In this document: one piece after another, positions 4,133 through 25,307 of the stretch
Position numbering within the stretch: the first letter of the stretch is position 1
Layout of the letters: the number at the start of each line of letters is the position of its first letter
Virus record (IMG/VR): IMGVR_UViG_3300045453_000071
Coordinates: 1 to 25,307 of that record
DNA from: a virus
Reading direction: 5' to 3' (one strand)
DNA: 25,307 bases
The notes under the pieces: model-generated
The model's input: the letters and a program-made list of their open reading frames with translations, nothing else
What the model was told of the DNA's origin: nothing
Database searches by the model: none
Made by a program: the position numbers and the translations under genes

Positions 4133-6640
4133 TTAAACCACCTCCTCGCGGATATTGAATACCAGCGGGTCCTGGTGCCCAAGCGCCCACAACCCGACCC
4201 CTTTTAACCTCCATCTGTGCTTCGCCAGGTTAGCCAACATATCGAAATGTTCCGCATCGGAGTAGTGGGCGATGGAGAACCCCCTTGCGTCCCCTAGGAA
4301 AAGCTGGGTAAGCCACAGCCCCCGGTCGCGCAGCCGGAAGGTAACAGCCCTGTCGCTGTCAAAAGCCGCGAAAGAATCAGTGTGCAGATAGTCAAAATCT
4401 GTGGAGACGCTTTCCTGCCTGGTCGCCGGTTCTTCCCCGGGGCCTTCAAAGCGGAAGTAATCCCACGATTCAAGCCATGTCACGCCGCTGCGCTGAATAC
4501 GCCCCAGTGTCTGGGCATGGCCGCCCGGCAACGTCACGTCAAGGGCCTCCTGCGGTACATAAACATAAGGGTCTCCCGCGTCCAGCAGGCCGCACTCACA
4601 GGTAGCGCCGCTGGTGCGCAGCCCAAAGCCGCCGGAGACGGGGAGAGCCGCCGTCAAATTAAACACTCTGGTTGTCCCCACCCAGCAGTGCAGCTCGTTT
4701 CCCCGACTTCGCACCCGCAGCGTGTACCAAGTGTTTAAACTCACGCCCTGCGCCACGTCCGGCTGCAGCCTTGTCCATATCCCGCCTTGCCTTTGCCAAA
4801 GCTCCGCCGTCTGCGTGCCGCGCCGCAGCAGAAACAGATACAGATCGTTTACTCCCTGGGCTTTGAAAACCACGCCCATGGTGCCGCTCCCCGCCGTCAT
4901 GCGCAGCGTGGCTCTGATGTTCAGGTCGCCAAACCCGTCGTGGGAGAGTTGCGCCTGGGCGTCCGCGCTTGCCTGGTCGGACTGGATTAACACCCGCCTT
5001 GCCGGGTCCGTATCCATGCTCCAAGTCCCGCCGCTGCGGTTGTAGAAGGCGAGCGTGTTGTCCCTAAAGTCGTCATACCAGACCCAGGCGTGCTCCGGAG
5101 CGCTTCGCAGCACCTCAGCGGTGAGGATAAACCGCTCCGGCAGCACCCAGTTTCCGGCGATATCTTTTAGCCTCCTTGGGGTGAGGGTAAATTCCGCCTC
5201 GCCGCCGGTCATGCTAAAATTAAACTGCGAGCAGACCCTAAAGCCCCAGAACTGCGTACCATACTGGCTGCCCGCGCCGTGTACCTCTAAGGTGTGGCTT
5301 CCGGCAGACAAATAAAAACGCCCGGCCTTCAGCCAGTGGGTGCGACGGTGGAGGGGATACCAATCATCAAACGGCCCGACTTGCACCGGTGCCCCGTTTA
5401 GCCGCAGCTGCAAAACCTGACGGTTCCACCAGGGGCAATTCACCCTCGCCGCCAGGTCATATTCCCCCGCCTGGGGGACGGAAAAAGAAAAAAGGGCCAG
5501 GCCCTCTTCTTCCAGCACCGGTTGAGTCCCGGGAGGCGAACCCGGCGGGACGGGGAGAAGCTGGGGCGCCCTGGGGGAAATCCAGCCGCTGCCTACCGTC
5601 ATAGCGCCGGAAACCTCGTCAAAGCCGCTGCCTGTCCTGTCCGCGACCTGCCCGGCAAACTCATAGCGCGGCTCTTTTTCATAGGCGACCAGGTAGTTCC
5701 GCCTGACCCGGCCCGCCTGGCCGGAAACCTTAAAGATGGGGCTTGTAACCAGCGCCGCGTCCATGCCTTCCTGGTAATCGTAGATATGCAGGAGAAGGTA
5801 CGGGCTTTGGCTGTCCTCGTCCAGAAACCCGGCAAAGGGGAGGCGCGGCTGCAGCTCATGAAAAGTAAAATCCCCTTGCTGCCAGCCTAGCCAGGCGAGG
5901 AAGGTGCCGCCGCTGCCCCGGTAAGCGCCCGGGACAGGCCGCCTATCAATGCGCCAGTTGAAGCCGAAGCCGGGGATGCCGAGAAAGATTTTCTCCTTCG
6001 GTATCCGCGTTACCGCGTAGTCATAGATCTCCTCCATCCACCACACCGGGCTGATGGGCCCGGGAGCGCTGCCCGCCCAGGCAAAGGCGTAGCTCATAAT
6101 CACGCAGGTATCAAAATATGGCTCCATCCGGCGGTAATCGCACCAGCGCTCCCAGGACGGCGCGCCGTCCCCGGTCATGGGAGGCAAGTCCCAATGCACA
6201 TAGTGTTGAATCGGGCGGCTCTTGATGCTATCGTAGATCCTCTTCGCCAGGGCCACCACGCCGTCCGGATTGTCGCTCGGCCCTTTTTCCAGGTCGATAT
6301 CCACCCCGGCGGCGAAAGGGTACATATCCAGAATGCGGTGCAGCTCGCTGATAAACATGTCCTGCGCCCCGCCTGTGTTCTCCACGATGGCCCGAAAGCG
6401 GGAAAGGATGCCGTCGTTTCTGACCGTCAGCAGGTGGGTGATATGCGGCCAGCGCGCTACCCTTTCCAAATCGGCGGCGGGGATAACGCCGGTAATCCGC
6501 CCGGTGTTGTCGGGCACCAGAAAATCAAACAGCCCCATATGGGTCAGCCTGTCGCCGTAATCGCGCCACTCCTGCCTGGCCCGGGTGGTCTTTAAGAAAG
6601 ACCAGGTCATAAACCCCCGGCCTGCTTGTCTCATGCTCAT
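4133..6640 (-). CDS. Tail-associated GH18-like glycoside hydrolase with inserted carbohydrate-binding domains
   Basis: An 835-residue protein, probably a tail-tip enzyme or fibre that binds or cuts cell-surface glycan. Residues about 30-320 carry GH18 features: AGVDIDLE (111-118) in place of the DxxDxDxE motif with E118 as the proposed acid, IMSYAF (181-186), and FLGIPGFGFNW (219-229). The first Asp of the motif is Ala. Residues about 375-475 resemble a CBM6-like beta-sandwich and about 520-690 a concanavalin-like lectin fold. Residues 788-828 resemble the last part of a GH18 barrel (HYSDAEHF, then GVGLWALGHQDP). ATG at 6640 overlaps the previous stop as ATGA and has a purine-rich site 8 nt upstream. 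Bacterial relatives include spore cortex enzymes such as SleL/YaaH. Confidence 0.8.
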   Translation of the reverse strand: MSMRQAGRGFMTWSFLKTTRARQEWRDYGDRLTHMGLFDFLVPDNTGRITGVIPAADLERVARWPHITHLLTVRNDGILSRFRAIVENTGGAQDMFISELHRILDMYPFAAGVDIDLEKGPSDNPDGVVALAKRIYDSIKSRPIQHYVHWDLPPMTGDGAPSWERWCDYRRMEPYFDTCVIMSYAFAWAGSAPGPISPVWWMEEIYDYAVTRIPKEKIFLGIPGFGFNWRIDRRPVPGAYRGSGGTFLAWLGWQQGDFTFHELQPRLPFAGFLDEDSQSPYLLLHIYDYQEGMDAALVTSPIFKVSGQAGRVRRNYLVAYEKEPRYEFAGQVADRTGSGFDEVSGAMTVGSGWISPRAPQLLPVPPGSPPGTQPVLEEEGLALFSFSVPQAGEYDLAARVNCPWWNRQVLQLRLNGAPVQVGPFDDWYPLHRRTHWLKAGRFYLSAGSHTLEVHGAGSQYGTQFWGFRVCSQFNFSMTGGEAEFTLTPRRLKDIAGNWVLPERFILTAEVLRSAPEHAWVWYDDFRDNTLAFYNRSGGTWSMDTDPARRVLIQSDQASADAQAQLSHDGFGDLNIRATLRMTAGSGTMGVVFKAQGVNDLYLFLLRRGTQTAELWQRQGGIWTRLQPDVAQGVSLNTWYTLRVRSRGNELHCWVGTTRVFNLTAALPVSGGFGLRTSGATCECGLLDAGDPYVYVPQEALDVTLPGGHAQTLGRIQRSGVTWLESWDYFRFEGPGEEPATRQESVSTDFDYLHTDSFAAFDSDRAVTFRLRDRGLWLTQLFLGDARGFSIAHYSDAEHFDMLANLAKHRWRLKGVGLWALGHQDPLVFNIREEVV

Positions 6641-7269
6641 ATCCGTTTCCCCCCTTCCGCCAGTTGCCATTCCTGCAGTGTGACGAGCACCATGGCCGAA
6701 GGTTCCGGCCGCAAAGCCGCCAGTCCCGCGTCCAGCCCCAGCAGAGTAACAGGGAAGCGGGGATTCCCCCAAGTGGCATAGAGGAACCGGCCTTTAAAAT
6801 GAACGGGGCTGCCGTTTTGCAGTACTTGCCGCTCAGTGCCGATAACCGCTAACTCCTGGTTGCTCGCCAGCGCTTGCGGGAAATAAAAAAGCCTGGTCAG
6901 CATGTCCTGCCCCAAGGCGATGCCTTTGCTTAAGTTATCCTTTGCCATTAGGCGAAAGTCCAAGGCCGTGGGCACGATTACCGCCCCCGGCTCCACCGCC
7001 CAGTAGAAGCCGCGGTTGGGGACGATCAGGGTTTTAGCGCCCCGCACCACGGCGTTGTAGTGCTTTGGCGGGGACGGGCTGCCGTTTTCCCGCAGTTTTT
7101 GCAGCATCTCCTTGGTATTCTGGGAGTAGCCGGTTAAATGCTTTCCTTCCTGGAGCATCACGTCGGTAAAGAAAAAAGAGCCCGCGGCGTCAGAGATTAC
7201 CGCTTGGGCCCGGATACTGGCCACCCGCTTTCCCTCTTCCGGCGCGAAACGAAACAAATAGCGCTTCAT
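6637..7269 (-). CDS. Phage tail/baseplate accessory protein, function unknown
   Basis: A 210-residue protein in the tail operon between the hub-like protein and the GH18 protein. No family was recognised. Residues about 18-52 (SIRAQAVISDAAG, then TDVMLQEGKHLTGY) resemble the preceding 61-residue protein (7278-7463). The remainder has short beta-rich stretches (KTLIVPNRGFYWAVEPG). It has no membrane segment. TAGGTGA upstream supports ATG 7269. Its stop overlaps the GH18 start, so the two products may be made in proportion and sit together at the tail tip. Confidence 0.7.
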   Translation of the reverse strand: MKRYLFRFAPEEGKRVASIRAQAVISDAAGSFFFTDVMLQEGKHLTGYSQNTKEMLQKLRENGSPSPPKHYNAVVRGAKTLIVPNRGFYWAVEPGAVIVPTALDFRLMAKDNLSKGIALGQDMLTRLFYFPQALASNQELAVIGTERQVLQNGSPVHFKGRFLYATWGNPRFPVTLLGLDAGLAALRPEPSAMVLVTLQEWQLAEGGKRI

Positions 7270-17758: not shown

Positions 17759-19008
17759 GTACTGACCTCCTTCGGTTGATGGTTGGCAAACGCGCCCGCG
17801 TCAGCCAGCTTCGTCATATTGCCGTTGACCAGATACAAATCGCCGCCCTCCTCGGCGGGAATGCGGTTCATGTCCTCAAGTTCGCGGATATCGTTCGCCG
17901 ACAGCCAGCCGTTCTGCCGTCCTGTGGCGTAACCGGTCATGCGGCTTTGGTAGTCGCCCCGCAGCAGCCCGTCCACATTGAACCGCACAAAGTAGCGGGG
18001 CTTTTCCGAAGGCAGGAGGAGGGACTGCTGCAAAGCCTGCTCCCAGCGCACCACCCACGGGTCGAGGGTGTACTTGACGAATTCCAGCGACTGCTGCTCG
18101 ATGTTGGAAAAGCTGGACTTCTCAAGGTCGCCTATCATGTGCGGAGGTATCCGGAAAATGCGGGCGATCTCATTGATCTGGAATTTGCGTGTCTCCAGAA
18201 ACTGCGCCTGTTCCGGCGGGATGCCGATGGCCTGGAATTTCATGCCCTCTTCCAGCACGGCGATGCGGTGGGCGTTGCCGCTGCCCTGATAGACCGCGTT
18301 CCAGCTTTCCCGCACCCTTTTGGGGTCTTTGACCACGCCCGGATGCTCCAGCACGCCGCCCGGATTGGCTCCGTTGGCGAAGAAGGAAGCGCCGTACTCC
18401 TCCGTGGCCATGGCCATGCCGATGGCGTTCTTGGCAATGGCGATGGGCGAGTAGCCGATCAGCCCGTCAAAGCCAAGGCCGGGGATATGCAAGACCTCGT
18501 CCCGGCGCAGCGTCACCGTCCCGCTGTCAGGGTTGATCCGGCTTTCCTCGGCATCACGGCGGTAGGTATAGGTCAGTTCGCCGTTTGCGGCTCGCGCCAC
18601 ATCCATCTTGTTGGGCAGCAGGGGGTAGAGGGCCATTACCTGGCCGCGCCCGTCCCGGATGATCTGCGCGTAGGCGTTGCCCCAAAGCAGAAGATGGCTC
18701 ATCAGCGTTTCCCTGAACACAAATGAAGTCATCTCCGGGTTTGGTTCGTTATGGAGGAGGTAGTACAGCCGGTGCCCCACAGCTTTCTCCTTGCCGCCAT
18801 CGGCTTTGTAGCGGTATACGCGAAGCGGCAGCCCGGCGATGGCTTCGGCCAGTATGCGGACGCAGGCATACACTGCCGTGGCCTGCATTGCCGTCCGCTC
18901 GTTGACCATCTTGCCGCTGGCGGTACCGCCGAACAGGAAGGAGAACCCGCTGCCCACGCGGTTTTGCGGCCTATCCCGCGTTCGGAACAGCCGGGAGAAT
19001 ATACTCAT
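17755..19008 (-). CDS. Portal protein (HK97 family)
   Basis: A 417-residue protein forming the dodecameric ring through which DNA is packaged and ejected. Family features: ATAVYACVRILAEAIAGLPL, MTSFVFRETLMSHLLLWGNAY, GLIGYSPIAIAKNAI, FFANGANPGGVLEHPG, and IFRIPPHMIGDLEKSSFSN near residue 310. ATG 19008 overlaps the terminase stop as ATGA and has only a weak ribosome site, so translation is likely coupled. Confidence 0.95.
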   Translation of the reverse strand: MSIFSRLFRTRDRPQNRVGSGFSFLFGGTASGKMVNERTAMQATAVYACVRILAEAIAGLPLRVYRYKADGGKEKAVGHRLYYLLHNEPNPEMTSFVFRETLMSHLLLWGNAYAQIIRDGRGQVMALYPLLPNKMDVARAANGELTYTYRRDAEESRINPDSGTVTLRRDEVLHIPGLGFDGLIGYSPIAIAKNAIGMAMATEEYGASFFANGANPGGVLEHPGVVKDPKRVRESWNAVYQGSGNAHRIAVLEEGMKFQAIGIPPEQAQFLETRKFQINEIARIFRIPPHMIGDLEKSSFSNIEQQSLEFVKYTLDPWVVRWEQALQQSLLLPSEKPRYFVRFNVDGLLRGDYQSRMTGYATGRQNGWLSANDIRELEDMNRIPAEEGGDLYLVNGNMTKLADAGAFANHQPKEVST

Positions 19009-20609
19009 AGGATCAATAACCCCCTCTCATCATAGACTGAAGCGCCGCCATCGCCGGAACCGCAGCGCAGGGCGCGGTCAAGCGCCATAATCGTCGCCAC
19101 CGCGCCGTCGATTCGTTCCGTGGATTTTTCTTTGTCCGGTTTGATGTTGCCGGCGGGATCGGTGCGAATGAAGATATTGTCCATCATCCAGCGCAGGACA
19201 GGATGGCCGCCGTGGGCGATTTTCTCCTCCAGCGTCAGCTTCATCAGCTCCTTGGTAGGCGGGGACATATCCTTAAAGCCCTGCCCGAAGGGGACGACAG
19301 TAAAGCCCAGCCCCTCAAGGTTCTGCACCATCTGCACCGCGCCCCAGCGGTCAAAGGCGATTTCGCGGATGTTGTACTTTTCGCCTAAGTTTTCAATGAA
19401 CCGCTCAATGAAGCCGTAATGCACCACGTTGCCTTCGGTGGTCAGCAAATATCCCTGCTTCTCCCAGAGGTCGTACTGCACATGGTCGCGCCGCACCCGC
19501 AGGCCGATATTGTTCTCCGGCATCCAGAAGAGGGGGAGGACGCTGTATTTGTCGTCCTCATCCATCGGCGGGAACACCAGCACAAAGGCGGTAATGTCGG
19601 TGGTGGAGGAGAGGTCAAGCCCGCCGTAGCAGACCCGGCCTTCGAGACTCGCCGCATCCACCGGGAAGGCGCAGGCATCCCATTTCGCCATCGGCATCCA
19701 ACGGACGGCCTGCTTTACCCATTGATTCAGGCGCAGCTGCCGGAAGCTGTTCTCCTCGGCGGGGTTCTGTTTCGCGCTTTCACAGGCAGCCCTCACTTTG
19801 TCGATGCCCACCGTAATGCCTAAACTTGGGTTAACCTTCTTCCATACCTTGGGGTCAGTCCAGTCGTCGTCCTCCTTCGCCCCGTAGATCACGGGATAGA
19901 AGGTGGGGTCGCGCTTCCTGCCTTCGAGGATATCTTTGGCCTTCTGGTGCGTCTCGTAGCAGATGCTCTGGTTGTCCGTTCCCGCCGTGGTGATCAGGAA
20001 GTACAGCGGCTGCCGCCTTGCGTCACCGGATCCTTTGGTCATTACGTCAAAGAGCTTGCGGTTAGGCTGGGTATGCAACTCGTCGAACACAACGCCGTGG
20101 ATGTTGAAACCGTGCTTGGAGTAGGCCTCCGCGCTCAGCACCTGGTAGAAGCTGTTGGTCGGCAGGTATACCAGGCGCTTGGTGGACGCAAGCAATTTCA
20201 CTCGCCGGGACAGCGCCGGGCACATCCGCACCATATCGGCAGCCACCTCGAACACGATGGAGGCCTGCTGGCGGTCGGCGGCGCAGCCGTACACCTCGGC
20301 ACGCTCCTCGCCGTCGCCGCAGGTTAACAGCAGGGCGATGGCGGCGGCCAGTTCAGACTTGCCCTGTTTTTTGGGGATCTCCACGTACGCTGTGTTGAAC
20401 TGCCTGCAGCCGTTGGGTTTAAGGATGCCGAAAAGGTCGCGGACAATCTGCTCCTGCCAGTCAATCAGCTCAAAGGGCTTCCCCGCCCAGGCGCCTTTGG
20501 TGTGGGAGAGGGCCTGGATAAAAGAAACGGCGTAATCGGCGGCAGCCTTATCATAGTAAGAGCCTTCCGCCATGAAGGAGGTCGGCCTGTATTTTTTCAG
20601 TTTGCGCAT
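19005..20609 (-). CDS. Terminase large subunit (ATPase/nuclease)
   Basis: A 534-residue DNA packaging motor. Walker A-like IPKKQGKS (78-85), Walker B VVFDE (173-177) and the ITTAG coupling motif near 206-210 form the ATPase. The RNase H-like nuclease begins at GGLDLSSTTD (D332) with a second acidic site around IAFDRWG and a last one near STERIDG. ATG 20609 is chosen because of AAAAAAGGAGG upstream; the longer frame begins in the gap. No small terminase gene is seen in the window. Confidence 0.96.
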   Translation of the reverse strand: MRKLKKYRPTSFMAEGSYYDKAAADYAVSFIQALSHTKGAWAGKPFELIDWQEQIVRDLFGILKPNGCRQFNTAYVEIPKKQGKSELAAAIALLLTCGDGEERAEVYGCAADRQQASIVFEVAADMVRMCPALSRRVKLLASTKRLVYLPTNSFYQVLSAEAYSKHGFNIHGVVFDELHTQPNRKLFDVMTKGSGDARRQPLYFLITTAGTDNQSICYETHQKAKDILEGRKRDPTFYPVIYGAKEDDDWTDPKVWKKVNPSLGITVGIDKVRAACESAKQNPAEENSFRQLRLNQWVKQAVRWMPMAKWDACAFPVDAASLEGRVCYGGLDLSSTTDITAFVLVFPPMDEDDKYSVLPLFWMPENNIGLRVRRDHVQYDLWEKQGYLLTTEGNVVHYGFIERFIENLGEKYNIREIAFDRWGAVQMVQNLEGLGFTVVPFGQGFKDMSPPTKELMKLTLEEKIAHGGHPVLRWMMDNIFIRTDPAGNIKPDKEKSTERIDGAVATIMALDRALRCGSGDGGASVYDERGLLIL

Positions 20610-20689
20610 AGGTACCGCCTCCTTTTTTGGGCAAAAGAAAAGAGCCTCCATGAGAAGCCCTGTTTCTATTTGTTATCGCTGATTTTAAT

Positions 20690-20875
20690 TTATTCCATGT
20701 CCGCTTCGCCCGTCAGGATAAAGCGGCTGTACTCGCCCTTGTGTTCCTCCAGGTACAGCACAAGTTCGTAGAAGCCGCGCACATAGGCTTCGTGCTGGAC
20801 GCGCGGCAGGTCAAACATATTGGTGGCGCCGCTTGCCCGGATGGAGAGGATTTGCTCCTTTATCTTTTCATTCAT
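20690..20875 (-). CDS. DUF5049-like small phage protein
   Basis: A 61-residue protein, MNEKIKEQILSIRASG with TNMFDLPRVQ and a helix GFYELVLYLEEH. This is the pattern of the DUF5049 family, found near terminases in Clostridia phages; its role is unknown. GGAGG lies 9 nt before ATG 20875, and the gene overlaps the preceding one by 8 nt. Length is typical. It belongs to the same transcript as the cyclotransferase and amidoligase. Confidence 0.8.
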   Translation of the reverse strand: MNEKIKEQILSIRASGATNMFDLPRVQHEAYVRGFYELVLYLEEHKGEYSRFILTGEADME

Positions 20876-21332
20876 AGACGGTTTCCTCCGTTTCCGCAGA
20901 ATCGATGGTCGCTTGGCGCAGGATCTCCACATCGAAGCCAGCGTCCCTGTAGCCTTCAAGGATAACCGAGTAGTAATAGCAGCTTGGTTGCCCCAGCGGC
21001 CTGCCCTCGTTCATGATATACACCATCGCGCTGACGGTCTTGCCGTCCAGCGCCACCTCGACCAGCTCCTTGCGGTAGAAGAACGGCCAGCCCTCATAGC
21101 GGTCGAGCGCCGCCTCGTCAGCCGGGGTGATCTCCCAAACCAGCACGGGGACGCTGCCGCCCTGACAAGGCTCCACCGTCGCCACCGCGTTCTCGCGCGC
21201 TCCCCGAAACAGGAGTTGCCAGTCTTTCAGAACGCTCGCCCCCAGCACCCTCGCCGTGGGGCATCTGTCCGCCATCTGCTCCCGGTTTAAGTTGGAACCG
21301 TAGGCGATATATAGCTTGTTGCGCTTATCCAT
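20868..21332 (-). CDS. Gamma-glutamylcyclotransferase-like (AIG2-type) protein
   Basis: A 154-residue protein of the GGCT fold. The substrate loop YGSNL (11-15) and the proposed catalytic Glu in RYEGWP (E80) are present, with YRKELVEVALDG continuing the barrel. These enzymes release 5-oxoproline from gamma-glutamyl amines. Paired with the amidoligase upstream, it may reverse or process gamma-glutamyl or isopeptide links. ATG 21332 has AAGGAGGG 9 nt upstream. It lies 38 nt after the amidoligase and overlaps the DUF5049 gene. Confidence 0.88.
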   Translation of the reverse strand: MDKRNKLYIAYGSNLNREQMADRCPTARVLGASVLKDWQLLFRGARENAVATVEPCQGGSVPVLVWEITPADEAALDRYEGWPFFYRKELVEVALDGKTVSAMVYIMNEGRPLGQPSCYYYSVILEGYRDAGFDVEILRQATIDSAETEETVYE

Positions 21333-21363
21333 AGTCTATGCCCTCCTTGCTCTTAGGCTGCGG

Positions 21364-21381
21364 GGGCGGCTTAAGCCGCCC
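21364..21381. repeat. Perfect palindrome across the amidoligase stop codon
   Basis: GGGCGGCTTAAGCCGCCC is a perfect 18-bp palindrome (7-bp GC-rich arms around TTAA) containing the TAA stop. It should form an RNA hairpin but lacks a T-run, so it may stabilise the upstream mRNA rather than terminate. Confidence 0.5.
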
Positions 21382-22270
21382 GAAACCGCCAGGCCGCCGA
21401 GCCGTTTAAGTGTGCGGTCAAGTGCTCCCTGCAGTTGGCGAACTCCTCGCCGATGAAGCCGATGCGGTTTAGGTAGGTCCGCATGGCGAACTTCTCGTTC
21501 TCGGCCTGGGGCTTTTTCGCCGAGGCGCATTTTTGCGTCAGCGCCTGGTGGTTCAAGGCGAGGGCGAGAACTATGTAGCTGCGTATCTTGCCCGCGTGAA
21601 GCTCGCTGTTGAAGCCTCTTAGCTCCACCGTGCGGTTGCCGGTGAAAAAGCTGTGCAGGTTGAGGAAGTGGTAGCGGCTGTGGTGGTAATGCCGGTCGCG
21701 GCTTTCGCTGTAGCCCTCGTACCAGATTTCCTCAATCGCCCGCAGGGTTTTGGGCTTTCTGCGGTTCATCTTCTCCACCAGCAGGCTGTCCATCTTCTTG
21801 CAGTAGCTCATCCGCTCCGGCGCAATCTGCAGCGCTTTGTAGAAAAGGTCGTTCTTGCTGGCGATGATGTTCACAAAGTTGCGGAGGCTGCGCGGCGTGT
21901 GGCTTCCCCCGTCAAGGTGGATGTGGATGCCGCAGGTGGCGCTGGCGAAGGTTCCGGCCTTGCGCAGTTTGCGCACCAGCTCCTGCAGGGTGGCGATATC
22001 CTCGCGGTAGGTGAGGATGGGGCTGACCAGCTCCACGCTGTATTCGCGGCTGGCGGGAACCCGCTGCCGCCCTTGCCTCATTTGGCAGGTGATGCTGCCG
22101 TCGCTCATAAACTTCCAGACCCTGCCGTCCGGCGCGGTGACCTTCTTGGTGTCGTAGTAGTCGCCTGCGCTTGTCACCGTTCCGCCGAGGTGGTCCGCCG
22201 CGATACGCGCCGCCTCGCTTCTGGTGATGCCCGTGAACTCGATCTCGATCCCGAATCTTCCCGTTAGCAT
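21371..22270 (-). CDS. Amidoligase-family enzyme (Amidoligase_2, glutamine synthetase-like fold)
   Basis: A 299-residue protein. GIEIEF (7-12), WKFMSDGS (52-59), EYSVELVSP (77-85), CGIHIHLD (113-120), RYHFLNLHS (199-207) and TVELRGFN (214-221) are the ATP and metal-binding motifs of the amidoligase branch of the glutamine synthetase/COOH-NH2 ligase superfamily. Such enzymes form amide bonds using ATP; the substrate here is unknown, with peptidoglycan peptides or a protein side chain being the main options. AAAGGAGG 9 nt before ATG 22270 supports the start. Its 3' end overlaps an 18-bp palindrome. Confidence 0.9.
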   Translation of the reverse strand: MLTGRFGIEIEFTGITRSEAARIAADHLGGTVTSAGDYYDTKKVTAPDGRVWKFMSDGSITCQMRQGRQRVPASREYSVELVSPILTYREDIATLQELVRKLRKAGTFASATCGIHIHLDGGSHTPRSLRNFVNIIASKNDLFYKALQIAPERMSYCKKMDSLLVEKMNRRKPKTLRAIEEIWYEGYSESRDRHYHHSRYHFLNLHSFFTGNRTVELRGFNSELHAGKIRSYIVLALALNHQALTQKCASAKKPQAENEKFAMRTYLNRIGFIGEEFANCREHLTAHLNGSAAWRFRAA

Positions 22271-22388
22271 GCTGTTTATCCTCCTTTAAGGGCGCTTGTT
22301 GTGTGCCTTCCGGCATACACATATATCACTCTGAAAGGGGATAATAGCAAGCTATTTCTGCGGAAAAAGCACAGAAATATCGGGGATT

Positions 22389-22493
22389 TTACAGCTTTTT
22401 CACCGCGTCCTCGCCGTAGACCACGCCAAGGCGAGAGCCGCTGTCCCAGATGCAAAACAGGGTGCCGTTATGTGAAGCTTCACATAAAGGCAC
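22389..22493 (-). pseudogene. Remnant of a small phage gene at the RIT junction
   Basis: The minus strand encodes GTLFCIWDSGSRLGVVYGED and a short tail ending in TAA (22391-22389). Composition and balanced codon use look like a real protein end. A GTG at 22493 could start a 34-residue product, but it has no ribosome site and an in-frame TAA lies immediately upstream. I read it as the 3' end of a gene whose 5' part was displaced by the neighbouring recombinase element. No family recognised. The rest of the stretch 22271-22388 holds only the amidoligase ribosome site and a weak hairpin (22300-22321). Confidence 0.4.
22462..22493. repeat. 32-bp near-perfect palindrome
   Basis: The core TTATGTGAAGCTTCACATAA (22468-22487) is a perfect 20-bp palindrome. 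Adding one mismatched pair and GTGCC/GGCAC on the outside extends it to 22462-22493. It sits 15 bp from the inverted half-sites of the recombinase element and could be a protein-binding site, a recombination target or a hairpin. Confidence 0.7.
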
Positions 22494-22507
22494 TTATGAA
22501 AAGCTGT

Positions 22508-22577
22508 ACGTTATGGAAAGTAAATGCAAATACTTTATTAATTCTTGAAAGTGTATCACGAATACTTTCCATAACGT
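22508..22577. repeat. Inverted half-sites at the end of the recombinase trio
   Basis: ACGTTATGGAAAGTA (22508-22522) and TACTTTCCATAACGT (22563-22577) are perfect 15-bp inverted repeats. Between them lie weaker copies of the core: TACTTTAT (22531-22538) and TGAAAGTG (22546-22553). The four cores alternate in direction and make two inverted pairs with 8- and 9-base spacers, the geometry of tyrosine recombinase core sites. It lies 8 bp past the stop of the last recombinase gene. Confidence 0.7.
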
Positions 22578-22585
22578 TTGAGTAC

Positions 22586-23614
22586 CTAATTTCCACACAA
22601 TCCAGCTAAAAACTCCATCAGGGAGGCATCTTCGTTCCATAATGGTTCATTATTTGTCGTAAGCGTTGCCGAATGAGCCTTGTTTAAAGCTTCGCGTATA
22701 CTTTTGCTGTCCGCTTTGGCGTAAACCTCGGTCGTTTTAACGCTTTCATGCCCAAGAAAATCGCGTATGTATATCAGAGGAACGCCTGCCTGCAGCAAAT
22801 GCATGGCTTTTGAATGTCTCATGCAATGCGGGGAGAACTTTTCGGGAATCTGCCCAGGCAGTTCCAGCCTTACCTTGTCTGTGTACCTTTTTAAGATATA
22901 TGTGACGCCTGCCCGCGTCAGTTGTCCTCCACTATGGTTAACAAACAGCAACTTATCCTTTGTTTCAGGCTGTCCCAATCGTTCGCGTAAAAGGTAATTT
23001 TTAATAAGAGCGTTTGTTTTATCGGACAATGGAACAACTCTGTCCTTATTACCCTTACCGTGCAGGGTAAGCGTTGCCGGCATCTGGGTACGGATATCGC
23101 CTATGCGTATTTGCGTGATTTCACTAACCCTTGCGCCGCTGTCATAAAGCATAGTAAGAATAAGCATATCACGGTATCCAGACCTCCTTGTGCTATCAGG
23201 CTGCCTGAGCAAGCAGGCTACCGCAGCGTCTGTCATGTAACTAACCGTCGGTTCGGGCTGTTTTTTAATTCGAATCGATAGGATTTCGCTTGCCGTACTC
23301 AAATATTCTGGGAACGCGAATTTAATATAGCCGAAAAATGATTTTAATGCCGCCAACCGCTGGTTACGGGTTGAAACTGATTTTCCATCCGCCTCAAGCT
23401 TGGAGAGAAATCCGGTAATCAGTTCACGGGAAAAATCAGAAATAACCAGTTTTTCCGGCGGGATTCTCGCTGTTTCCATGCAATAGAGGATGAATTGCTT
23501 GAAGGTGTCGCGGTATGAGCTTATTGTGTTTTCGGAAAACCCGCGTTCCCCTGGCAAGTATACTTTAAAGAAACGCGATACGGCATACCCGAAGTTTTGC
23601 TTTTCATTCTTCAT
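22586..23614 (-). CDS. Tyrosine recombinase, third of trio (RitC-like)
   Basis: A 342-residue tyrosine recombinase. Residues about 10-105 form the SAM-like core-binding domain (FSENTISSYRDTFKQF). The catalytic domain keeps all key residues: Arg in YDSGARVSEI, Lys in HGKGNKDRVVPL, HxxR in SPHCMRHSKAM, and His then Tyr in LGHESVKTTEVYAKAD. It should cut DNA through a phosphotyrosine bond. GGAGG lies 9 nt before ATG 23614, which overlaps the second gene by 11 nt. The inverted half-sites follow its stop closely and are likely its substrate. Confidence 0.92.
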   Translation of the reverse strand: MKNEKQNFGYAVSRFFKVYLPGERGFSENTISSYRDTFKQFILYCMETARIPPEKLVISDFSRELITGFLSKLEADGKSVSTRNQRLAALKSFFGYIKFAFPEYLSTASEILSIRIKKQPEPTVSYMTDAAVACLLRQPDSTRRSGYRDMLILTMLYDSGARVSEITQIRIGDIRTQMPATLTLHGKGNKDRVVPLSDKTNALIKNYLLRERLGQPETKDKLLFVNHSGGQLTRAGVTYILKRYTDKVRLELPGQIPEKFSPHCMRHSKAMHLLQAGVPLIYIRDFLGHESVKTTEVYAKADSKSIREALNKAHSATLTTNNEPLWNEDASLMEFLAGLCGN

Positions 23615-24602
23615 ATCCGGTTACCTCCGGCAGAATCGCCGCACAGACCGAGGCGGCAGTTTCCAGGAATTCTGGGTAAACCTCAGCGGTGAGGCGCAGA
23701 TACTTTTCAGTCGAAGTAATTTTACTGTGTCCTAGATATGACATCAAAATCGGCAAAGAAACATATATATCTTTGCCCTCGGCGACGTTCTTTTGCAACG
23801 AGCGGACGGCAAAAGTGTGTCGCAGATCATGAACCCGAGGACCCTTGCCTTGCCCCTGATGAGGGATATCGCTCTGCCATAGCACTGTACGGAACTTATC
23901 ATACACAGTACGCTGGCTATATTTCTCGCCAAGCGAGTTTGGAAAGAAGAAACCCTCGGCAGCTATCCCAATAGAATTTTTATTGGCTTCGGCGTAAACC
24001 CTCAATGTTTCCAACAACGAAGCCGAAATAGGCAAACGTCTGCAGTTGTCGAATTTCGAGTTTTCAATGAACAAAAGACCCTTATCGAGGTCAACGTCCC
24101 TAACGCGGAGTTCGAGAGCCTCTGAAACCCGCAATCCGCAGCAATACAGGACTTTCAGTATCGCGGGAAACACCAGATGAAACATCGACCGTCCTTTGGG
24201 TTTGCCGAGATTGTTGGCGACTCGAAAAATCCGCACCATCTCATCTTCGGTAAAGATATATGGAATGTACCGTTCCTTTTGTGCGCAGTATCCAGGGTAA
24301 GGATTCCACGTAACAAGACAACCGACGGAACGCATATAGTCCGAAAAGCATTTCAAGATTGATGTGCGGTGTGCCAATGTGCTTGAAGATTGACTTTGGC
24401 TTTCAGAAATCCAGTCAGAAACAAGATCCGCTTCCACTAACGGTTCCGCACAGCCTTGTCTTACACAATACCGGTCGAACTGCCTAAGCACCCCTGATTG
24501 GACACAGAACTTTGCGCCGAGAGACTCACGCAGTTCTATGTAGTCGCGGATATACGGCGCAAACACACTGTTGAATTCGAAGGTTGGCTTCTTGTAAATC
24601 AT
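23604..24602 (-). CDS. Tyrosine recombinase, second of trio (RitB-like)
   Basis: A 332-residue tyrosine recombinase. N-terminal core-binding domain at about 10-100 (IRDYIELRESLGAKF), then the catalytic domain with Arg in YCCGLRVSEALEL, Lys in FIENSKFDNCRRLPI, HxxR in VHDLRHTFAVRSL, and His then Tyr in LGHSKITSTEKYLRL. All catalytic residues are present. ATG 24602 is chosen because GGAGG lies 7 nt upstream and it overlaps the previous stop as ATGA. Its place between two other recombinases suggests they act as one complex. Confidence 0.92.
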   Translation of the reverse strand: MIYKKPTFEFNSVFAPYIRDYIELRESLGAKFCVQSGVLRQFDRYCVRQGCAEPLVEADLVSDWISESQSQSSSTLAHRTSILKCFSDYMRSVGCLVTWNPYPGYCAQKERYIPYIFTEDEMVRIFRVANNLGKPKGRSMFHLVFPAILKVLYCCGLRVSEALELRVRDVDLDKGLLFIENSKFDNCRRLPISASLLETLRVYAEANKNSIGIAAEGFFFPNSLGEKYSQRTVYDKFRTVLWQSDIPHQGQGKGPRVHDLRHTFAVRSLQKNVAEGKDIYVSLPILMSYLGHSKITSTEKYLRLTAEVYPEFLETAASVCAAILPEVTGYEE

Positions 24603-25307
24603 ACCGGCACCTCCAAAGCGCAAACGATGAGTTGCGGAACGTCTATCTTGGTATAGAGCGTTGTCACGTTCAGTTCAGAGTGGCCGAGTATTCCTGAAAT
24701 CGTAGTAAGCGAAACGTCCTGTTTCAGCAACTCACTGGCAAGGCCATAGCGGAGCATGTGGAAACTGCTCTTGCTTTTCGCTCCGCCCTTAACACCTGCC
24801 GCTGTTGCGTATTTCCCTATTATGTGTGCCAAGTTGTCATGCGTTCCAAATGAATCATACGGAGCCACATGGCGTACAAATACGGTGCTCGTTTCGGTTT
24901 GCGGCCGACCATTCTTTAAGTAGTCAATGATTGCCCAACCGACGTCCGGCAGCAAATCCAACATAAGGGACCTGCCTGTCTTAACTTGGACAATACTGAT
25001 TTTATTTGAAACAAAATCAATATCGGAAAGCTTGAGGTTCTTGATGTCGCTGATTCTCAAACCATAACGTGCGCCAATTAAAATCATTGCGTAATCTCGC
25101 TTACCGCGCGGGTTGGCTCGGTCGATTTGAGCCAGCATTAGCCCGATTTCTTTTGATTCGTAGTACTCCGGGACTTTTCGGTCTTTGAATACCGACACGT
25201 CTGGGAATGTAAATCTTTCAACAGCGGAGTTTTCGATTCTCGCAAAGTCTAAGAAGGCTTTCAACACGCTAATCCTACCGGAAATATAGCTTTTCGCACA
25301 ACCTGCA
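24599..25307 (-). CDS. Tyrosine recombinase, first of trio (RitA-like), 5' end outside window
   Basis: The reading frame is open to the window edge, so the N-terminus is missing; 236 codons are visible. Residues just inside the edge (SYISGRISVLKAFLDFAR) belong to the core-binding domain. The catalytic domain shows Arg in GARYGLRISDIKNL, Lys in IVQVKTGRSLML, HxxR in FHMLRYGLASELL, and His then Tyr in LGHSELNVTTLYTKID, a complete set. A GTG at 25267 exists but lies inside the conserved domain and is not a credible start. Confidence 0.9.
   Translation of the reverse strand, partial: AGCAKSYISGRISVLKAFLDFARIENSAVERFTFPDVSVFKDRKVPEYYESKEIGLMLAQIDRANPRGKRDYAMILIGARYGLRISDIKNLKLSDIDFVSNKISIVQVKTGRSLMLDLLPDVGWAIIDYLKNGRPQTETSTVFVRHVAPYDSFGTHDNLAHIIGKYATAAGVKGGAKSKSSFHMLRYGLASELLKQDVSLTTISGILGHSELNVTTLYTKIDVPQLIVCALEVPV

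Follow-up and report, generated by a model that had tools for sequence, protein, structure and literature searches.

A nearly obligate pair of putative amidoligase and gamma-glutamyl cyclotransferase genes in a phage packaging locus

Why would a phage carry, next to its terminase, one gene for a predicted ATP-dependent amide-forming enzyme and another for an enzyme that breaks gamma-glutamyl links, and on what would the two act? Predictions of amidoligases in this family go back more than fifteen years, and we know of no established substrate for such an enzyme in any phage. Gene-neighbourhood work on the ligase and cyclotransferase, published in 2008, is said to have been extended by Iyer et al. 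in 2009 (Mol Biosyst). The passage of the 2008 study that bears on the pair (Iyer et al. 2008, PMC2588565) places a glutamine-synthetase-fold ligase, likely the family that we call AmLB, next to a cyclotransferase of the Aig2 family in Firmicutes; the link that the initial annotation attributed to earlier surveys is right in substance. The pair's genes are also listed, without analysis in the portions that mention them, in reports on Clostridium difficile Tn6164 (PMC3485107), Clostridium clostridioforme prophages (PMC11318856) and a Terrisporobacter phage (PMC11253131). Compared with the neighbourhoods covered in the 2008 passage, the pairing described here is quantified as near-obligate and is situated in a phage TerS–TerL locus, accompanied by a putative pseudo-amidoligase and by a leader element that several of the genes share. 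In the portions of the literature that deal with these genes, neither the strictness of the pairing nor the pseudo-enzyme nor the leader element appears to have been described.

Gene order in the window and in its relatives

The window, i.e. the whole stretch of DNA that was analysed, is a virus record of 25,307 bases (IMGVR_UViG_3300045453_000071). The initial annotation had placed an amidoligase, a cyclotransferase and a DUF5049 gene beside the terminase, and Pfam and PHROGs matches confirm all three; read along the minus strand, the genes run AmLB (Amidoligase_2), GGCT, DUF5049 and TerL:

19005–20651, minus strand: TerL, the usual downstream neighbour of the cassette (TerL_nuclease, E 1.8e-47; TerL_ATPase, E 4.9e-20)
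20690–20875, minus strand: DUF5049 small protein, an optional cassette member (61 aa; Pfam E 3.8e-31)
20868–21332, minus strand: GGCT, putative gamma-glutamyl cyclotransferase (154 aa; Pfam GGACT E 8.9e-14, AIG2_2; phrog_2520 E 6.2e-48)
21371–22270, minus strand: AmLB, intact Amidoligase_2, predicted glutamine-synthetase-fold carboxylate-amine ligase (299 aa; Pfam E 1.5e-73; phrog_2443 E 3.5e-93)
22278–22352, minus strand: predicted RNA hairpin formed by the leader element and the AmLB ribosome-binding site AAAGGAGGAT (MFE -30 kcal/mol)
22317–22352, minus strand: leader element CTTGCTATT-N-CNTTYAGAGTGATATATGT, one copy before AmLB (core match with 0 mismatches)
22389–22467, minus strand: 3′ remnant of DUF4314, reading ...GTLFCIWDSGSRLGVVYGEDAVKKL up to its stop (homology to the intact DUF4314 region of locus L008)
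22468–25307, minus strand: insertion of three tyrosine recombinase genes (22586–23614, 23604–24623 and 24599–25306, the last partial; Phage_integrase in 3/3)

DUF5049 and the end of GGCT, stop codon included, share 8 nt (ATGAATGA, read directly from the sequence). Describing these genes as part of a phage late operon, as had been done, is too simple, since a conserved leader element of its own precedes AmLB at 22317–22352.

The window also encodes a portal protein, a ClpP-like protease and an HK97-type capsid, which, together with TerL and the taxonomy given in the records of relatives, point to a phage of the Ca. Heliusvirales type. The Ca. Heliusviridae/Heliusvirales are gut phages described as sharing nine genes; TerL, portal, Clp protease and major capsid are found there as in the window, whereas the amidoligase–GGCT pair does not figure in the list of nine (PMC9226167, in the part that lists them). 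Towards the other end of the window (4133–6772, minus strand), an 879-aa tail-region protein carries a domain of glycosyl hydrolase family 18 (E 6.1e-10) as well as a match, below threshold, to 3-keto-disaccharide hydrolase; it is possibly a wall- or receptor-cutting tail protein.

Relatives that share 96–97 % identity in AmLB carry, in this order, TerS, two ParB_N/N6_N4 methyltransferases, AmLA, DUF4314, AmLB, GGCT, DUF5049 and TerL. The cassette is larger than the three genes first annotated, and its left part has been lost from the window. DUF4314 is cut at 22467/22468, as alignment with L008, where the DUF4314 region is intact, shows homology starting exactly at 22467, and the recombinase trio separates AmLB from the 5′ half of DUF4314 and from AmLA, which is absent from the window. 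Short inverted repeats lie near the end of the insertion, within 22462–22577 (22462–22493 and 22508–22577), and the three overlapping tandem recombinase genes resemble ‘recombinase in trio’ (RIT) elements. Elsewhere in the set, single frames join two of the families: DUF4314 and DUF5049 in L003 (7198–7746), L039 (7109–7846) and L044 (7169–7846), and GGCT and DUF5049 in one open frame of L047 (4714–5397). A putative S-adenosylmethionine synthetase-like gene, whole or as a fragment, lies upstream of the methyltransferases in L019 (about 5379–5597) and in a neighbouring relative (a 409-codon frame).

Motifs, paralogy and pairing of AmLB and GGCT

The initial annotation had stated that both enzymes keep their active-site motifs, and this holds for the window as well as for relatives. 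AmLB retains GIEIE, GIHIHL, HYHHSRYHFLN and TVELR. Its strand-1 motif is G7-I8-E9-I10-E11 (GxExE in 248/250 distinct AmLB sequences), H116-I-H118 falls on a predicted strand at 114–120 (GhHhH in 245/250), and the catalytic motifs are invariant in alignment A6, as are R218 (TVELR, strand 214–221) and the loop residue R199. The superfamily of carboxylate-amine/ammonia ligases is characterized by GhExE or Ex[EH] on strand 1 and [HD]x[NH] on strand 4 (PMC2588565, in its account of the family), and the set that it requires (GhExE, HxH, a strand Arg, here in TVELR, and a loop Arg) is present in AmLB. We found no solved structure matching AmLB by sequence; a Foldseek search with the AF2 model (pLDDT 92.4) returned YbdK (1r8g, E 1.8e-5) as the best match, followed by glutamine synthetase (5.6e-4) and Dop (8.4e-4), all distant (TM about 0.4, identity 12–13 %). 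By predicted fold and motifs, AmLB is probably a glutamine-synthetase-fold carboxylate-amine ligase.

GGCT keeps YGSN and LDRYEG in the window, and among its distinct relatives YGSN and LDxxEG each occur in 243/245; Y11, G12, S13, N14 and E80 are invariant in alignment A3. Its profile matches human GGCT (2pn7, E 7e-13), and the column of the catalytic Glu, identified in the human enzyme through a Glu-to-Gln change in 3cry, aligns with Glu80. With both the YGSN loop and the catalytic Glu in place, the product is a putative gamma-glutamyl cyclotransferase (PF06094). PADLOC returned no defence-system match.

AmLA aligns to AmLB with 99.6 % probability over 204 columns (hhalign). Its model (pLDDT 92.9) keeps the order of the AmLB elements, with the counterpart of AmLB residues about 150–212 missing, and gave no significant structural match. 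GxExE at strand 1, GhHhH and hE[LF]R are each found in 0/247 distinct AmLA sequences, while a C-terminal NEK-R-LGFIG tail is carried by 210/247 of them and by 234/250 AmLB. We read AmLA as a probable paralogue of AmLB and a pseudo-enzyme in which every catalytic motif has been lost; public records name it amidoligase, virulence-related or hypothetical protein. Candidate introns in AmLB, raised by matches over 1,240 bp, were really merged matches to AmLA and AmLB.

The distribution of the genes was assessed using profiles for six families, with loci fetched through several anchors and one locus retained per sequence cluster; loci counted as room-checked had 4 kb of DNA or more flanking the anchor in both directions. 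Among room-checked viral loci, GGCT was present in 66 of the 68 with AmLB, and AmLB in all 67 with GGCT, and TerL lay nearby on the same strand in 63/68 AmLB loci. Most of the mismatches listed fall where a contig ends; in L230, GGCT was not detected although AmLB and TerL are present, and L300 has AmLB with no GGCT in about 6 kb of downstream sequence. Bacterial host genomes gave a similar picture (GGCT in 77/80 AmLB loci), and the two of the three misses that could be checked were both at contig ends. The pair is also absent together: two phages with complete genomes, Javan105 of Streptococcus (MK448667) and PV036425 of Oscillospiraceae, retain AmLA–DUF4314–DUF5049 and encode neither AmLB nor GGCT anywhere. 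AmLB and GGCT are thus a nearly obligate pair, close to absolute in these data.

Protein distances across 78 thinned loci were correlated at 0.88 for AmLB and GGCT (0.876 when controlled for TerL), compared with 0.34 for AmLB and AmLA and 0.23 for AmLB and TerL. Much of the first value is driven by two deep AmLB clades; within them the AmLB–GGCT correlation is 0.67 and 0.52, the highest among the AmLB pairs tested, with AmLB–AmLA close behind (0.57 and 0.46). Taken with the joint absence, these correlations suggest that the pair moves between phage backbones as one unit, bearing out the amidoligase–cyclotransferase link that had been proposed. In at least 14/36 DUF5049-anchored clusters, as well as in the complete phages, DUF4314 and DUF5049 are adjacent without the pair. 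Missing between the same flanking genes in relatives, and preceded by its own leader element as a candidate signal, the pair would fit the description of a moron. AmLA and DUF4314 are best explained as an older core, usually accompanied by DUF5049 when the pair is absent.

DUF5049 behaves differently. A co-occurrence check of the three families had been proposed, and of these the enzymes are not independent of each other, whereas DUF5049 is independent of them: it was found in 29/68 room-checked AmLB loci, and AmLB in 29/41 DUF5049 loci. A role for DUF5049 as dedicated substrate or carrier, raised in the initial annotation, finds no support in this pattern, as the gene is absent from most AmLB loci and is kept without both enzymes; a Pup-type C-terminal G[EQ] ends only 4 of 151 distinct DUF5049 proteins (GE or GQ). 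A Pup-like modifier was ruled out by the C-terminus and the co-occurrence together. The best explanation is that DUF5049 is a neighbour, not a substrate, and is dispensable for the pair. No paper naming DUF5049 or DUF4314 was found in the literature searched.

Proposed function and candidate targets

The reading that we favour, with a probability of about one half, is that AmLB and GGCT are an accessory unit for adding and removing gamma-glutamyl groups, whose target, in a cell that is infected or lysogenic, would most likely be a protein or a small metabolite bearing an amine and not peptidoglycan. The two genes would form one moron-like unit that Heliusvirales-type phages carry in their packaging locus. 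AmLB would use ATP to join a gamma-carboxyl group, most likely that of glutamate or of a glutamate-ended peptide, to an amine of the target, and GGCT would later convert the gamma-glutamyl group into cyclic 5-oxoproline and thereby free the amine, so that the net effect would be a group added and removed, or protection followed by deprotection. AmLA, catalytically dead by its motifs, may regulate or scaffold AmLB. If both enzymes acted simultaneously on one product, ATP would merely be wasted; hence, timing or substrate would have to separate them.

This logic has a parallel in butirosin biosynthesis, an antibiotic pathway in which the ATP-grasp ligase BtrJ adds a gamma-glutamyl group that BtrG, a GGCT-fold enzyme, removes as 5-oxoproline (protection and deprotection). 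By analogy, the phage pair may follow the same add-and-remove scheme, whereas AmLB has a predicted glutamine-synthetase fold and is phage-borne. PafA and Dop share the fold class of AmLB, Dop being among the structural matches, and likewise ligate and reverse a gamma-glutamyl amide; however, reversal in the phage would fall to a cyclotransferase and not to a PafA-like paralogue, and no Pup-like protein was found.

Wall peptides were among the targets first suggested for the pair, and Iyer et al. reportedly proposed in 2009, for phage phiEco32, a modification of peptidoglycan that blocks superinfection. Applied here, the pair would modify the peptides of peptidoglycan in a lysogen or during infection, a suggestion also made in the relevant passages on Terrisporobacter phage TPDSL_ph1 (PMC11253131) and C. 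clostridioforme prophages (PMC11318856) and in keeping with hosts that are mostly Firmicutes. However, neither AmLB nor GGCT has a wall-binding domain in Pfam, and the genes lie in the packaging locus, not beside lysis genes. Further weakening comes from metagenome-assembled genomes, which could be incomplete or misbinned: an Acholeplasmataceae prophage has an intact pair in a genome where transpeptidase and MurB were not found and the one Mur-ligase match is weak and possibly FolC, and a Sphaerochaeta genome has four AmLB copies and MurB, with transpeptidase not found. The Acholeplasmataceae prophage contig also carries recombinase and other non-phage-looking genes of similar G+C content, and an Anaeroplasmataceae example, in which wall genes are present, is no evidence either way. 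That the pair is kept in a genome in which wall-synthesis genes were not found is suggestive against a wall target, and we judge such a target quite unlikely.

Alternatively, the pair could act with the two adjacent methyltransferases on phage DNA or nucleotides, placing a gamma-glutamyl amide on a base as anti-restriction before packaging. The order in relatives, where the cassette directly follows the two ParB_N/N6_N4 genes between TerS and TerL, favours this; yet the methyltransferases also accompany the AmLA core in phages without AmLB and GGCT, such as Javan105, and an unsystematic look at the surroundings of the cassette revealed no gene for hypermodification, leaving this reading with little probability in our estimate. 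A gamma-glutamyl peptide metabolite of the glutathione kind, made and degraded without a specific target so as to reshape the amino-acid or redox pools of the host, would agree with the best fold match of AmLB, YbdK being a gamma-glutamyl:cysteine ligase, and with the match of the GGCT profile to human GGCT, an enzyme whose substrates are gamma-glutamyl amino acids. Metabolite synthesis is also what the relevant passage of Iyer et al. 2008 (PMC2588565) favours for the family. Net accumulation is less easily seen when maker and breaker are strictly paired, however, and the AmLA core would be left unexplained, such that we consider this unlikely too. For the favoured add-and-remove unit, the search for a target is narrowed by a nearly inseparable maker and breaker, a dispensable DUF5049, an unlikely wall and an apparently dead paralogue marking an older core, and complete phages with and without the pair are now at hand for direct comparison.

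The shared leader element

A start-associated motif of ~40 nt (CTTGCTATTNNNNNCNTTYAGAGTGATATATGTA; consensus from 274 instances) is found ahead of AmLA, AmLB and further accessory genes. Of its 412 non-redundant instances, 159 lie before AmLA, 119 before AmLB and 128 before other, mostly small, genes; the idea that it stands before AmLA and AmLB only was dropped on account of these 128. The window contains a single copy of the core, without mismatches, against 0 copies expected by chance. When ten whole host genomes were scanned allowing up to two mismatches, each of the 22 matches was inside these cassettes, compared with 0 matches for a reversed control pattern.

Leaders of AmLB are predicted to fold strongly, the element pairing with the ribosome-binding site (in the window, MFE -30 kcal/mol, z -4.3 relative to shuffles). 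Native arms gave -14.2 kcal/mol and arms swapped between leaders -11.8 kcal/mol, a test that shared ancestry and base composition inflate. RNAalifold returned no consensus structure for the AmLB leaders, probably owing to misalignment of the 3′ arm, and the hairpin is drawn from single folds and the arm-swap comparison. Rfam gave no family match for the leader and one sub-threshold match elsewhere. The element is possibly a promoter, an operator or an RNA element: a promoter would place the transcription start within or just after ATATATG, and an RNA element would place it upstream of TTGCTATT.

A more elaborate version of the favoured reading, tentative and on balance unlikely, joins these elements into a reversible gamma-glutamylation switch, in which AmLB would add, GGCT would remove and AmLA, with DUF4314, would serve as a non-catalytic regulator or targeter, AmLA and AmLB being co-regulated through a leader that masks the ribosome-binding site and also marks other TerS–TerL accessory genes. 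The repeated element offers a route to other genes controlled alongside the pair. Several unidentified small-protein families lie behind it, one with 32 members of about 155 aa, and these may serve as pointers to the function of the cassette.
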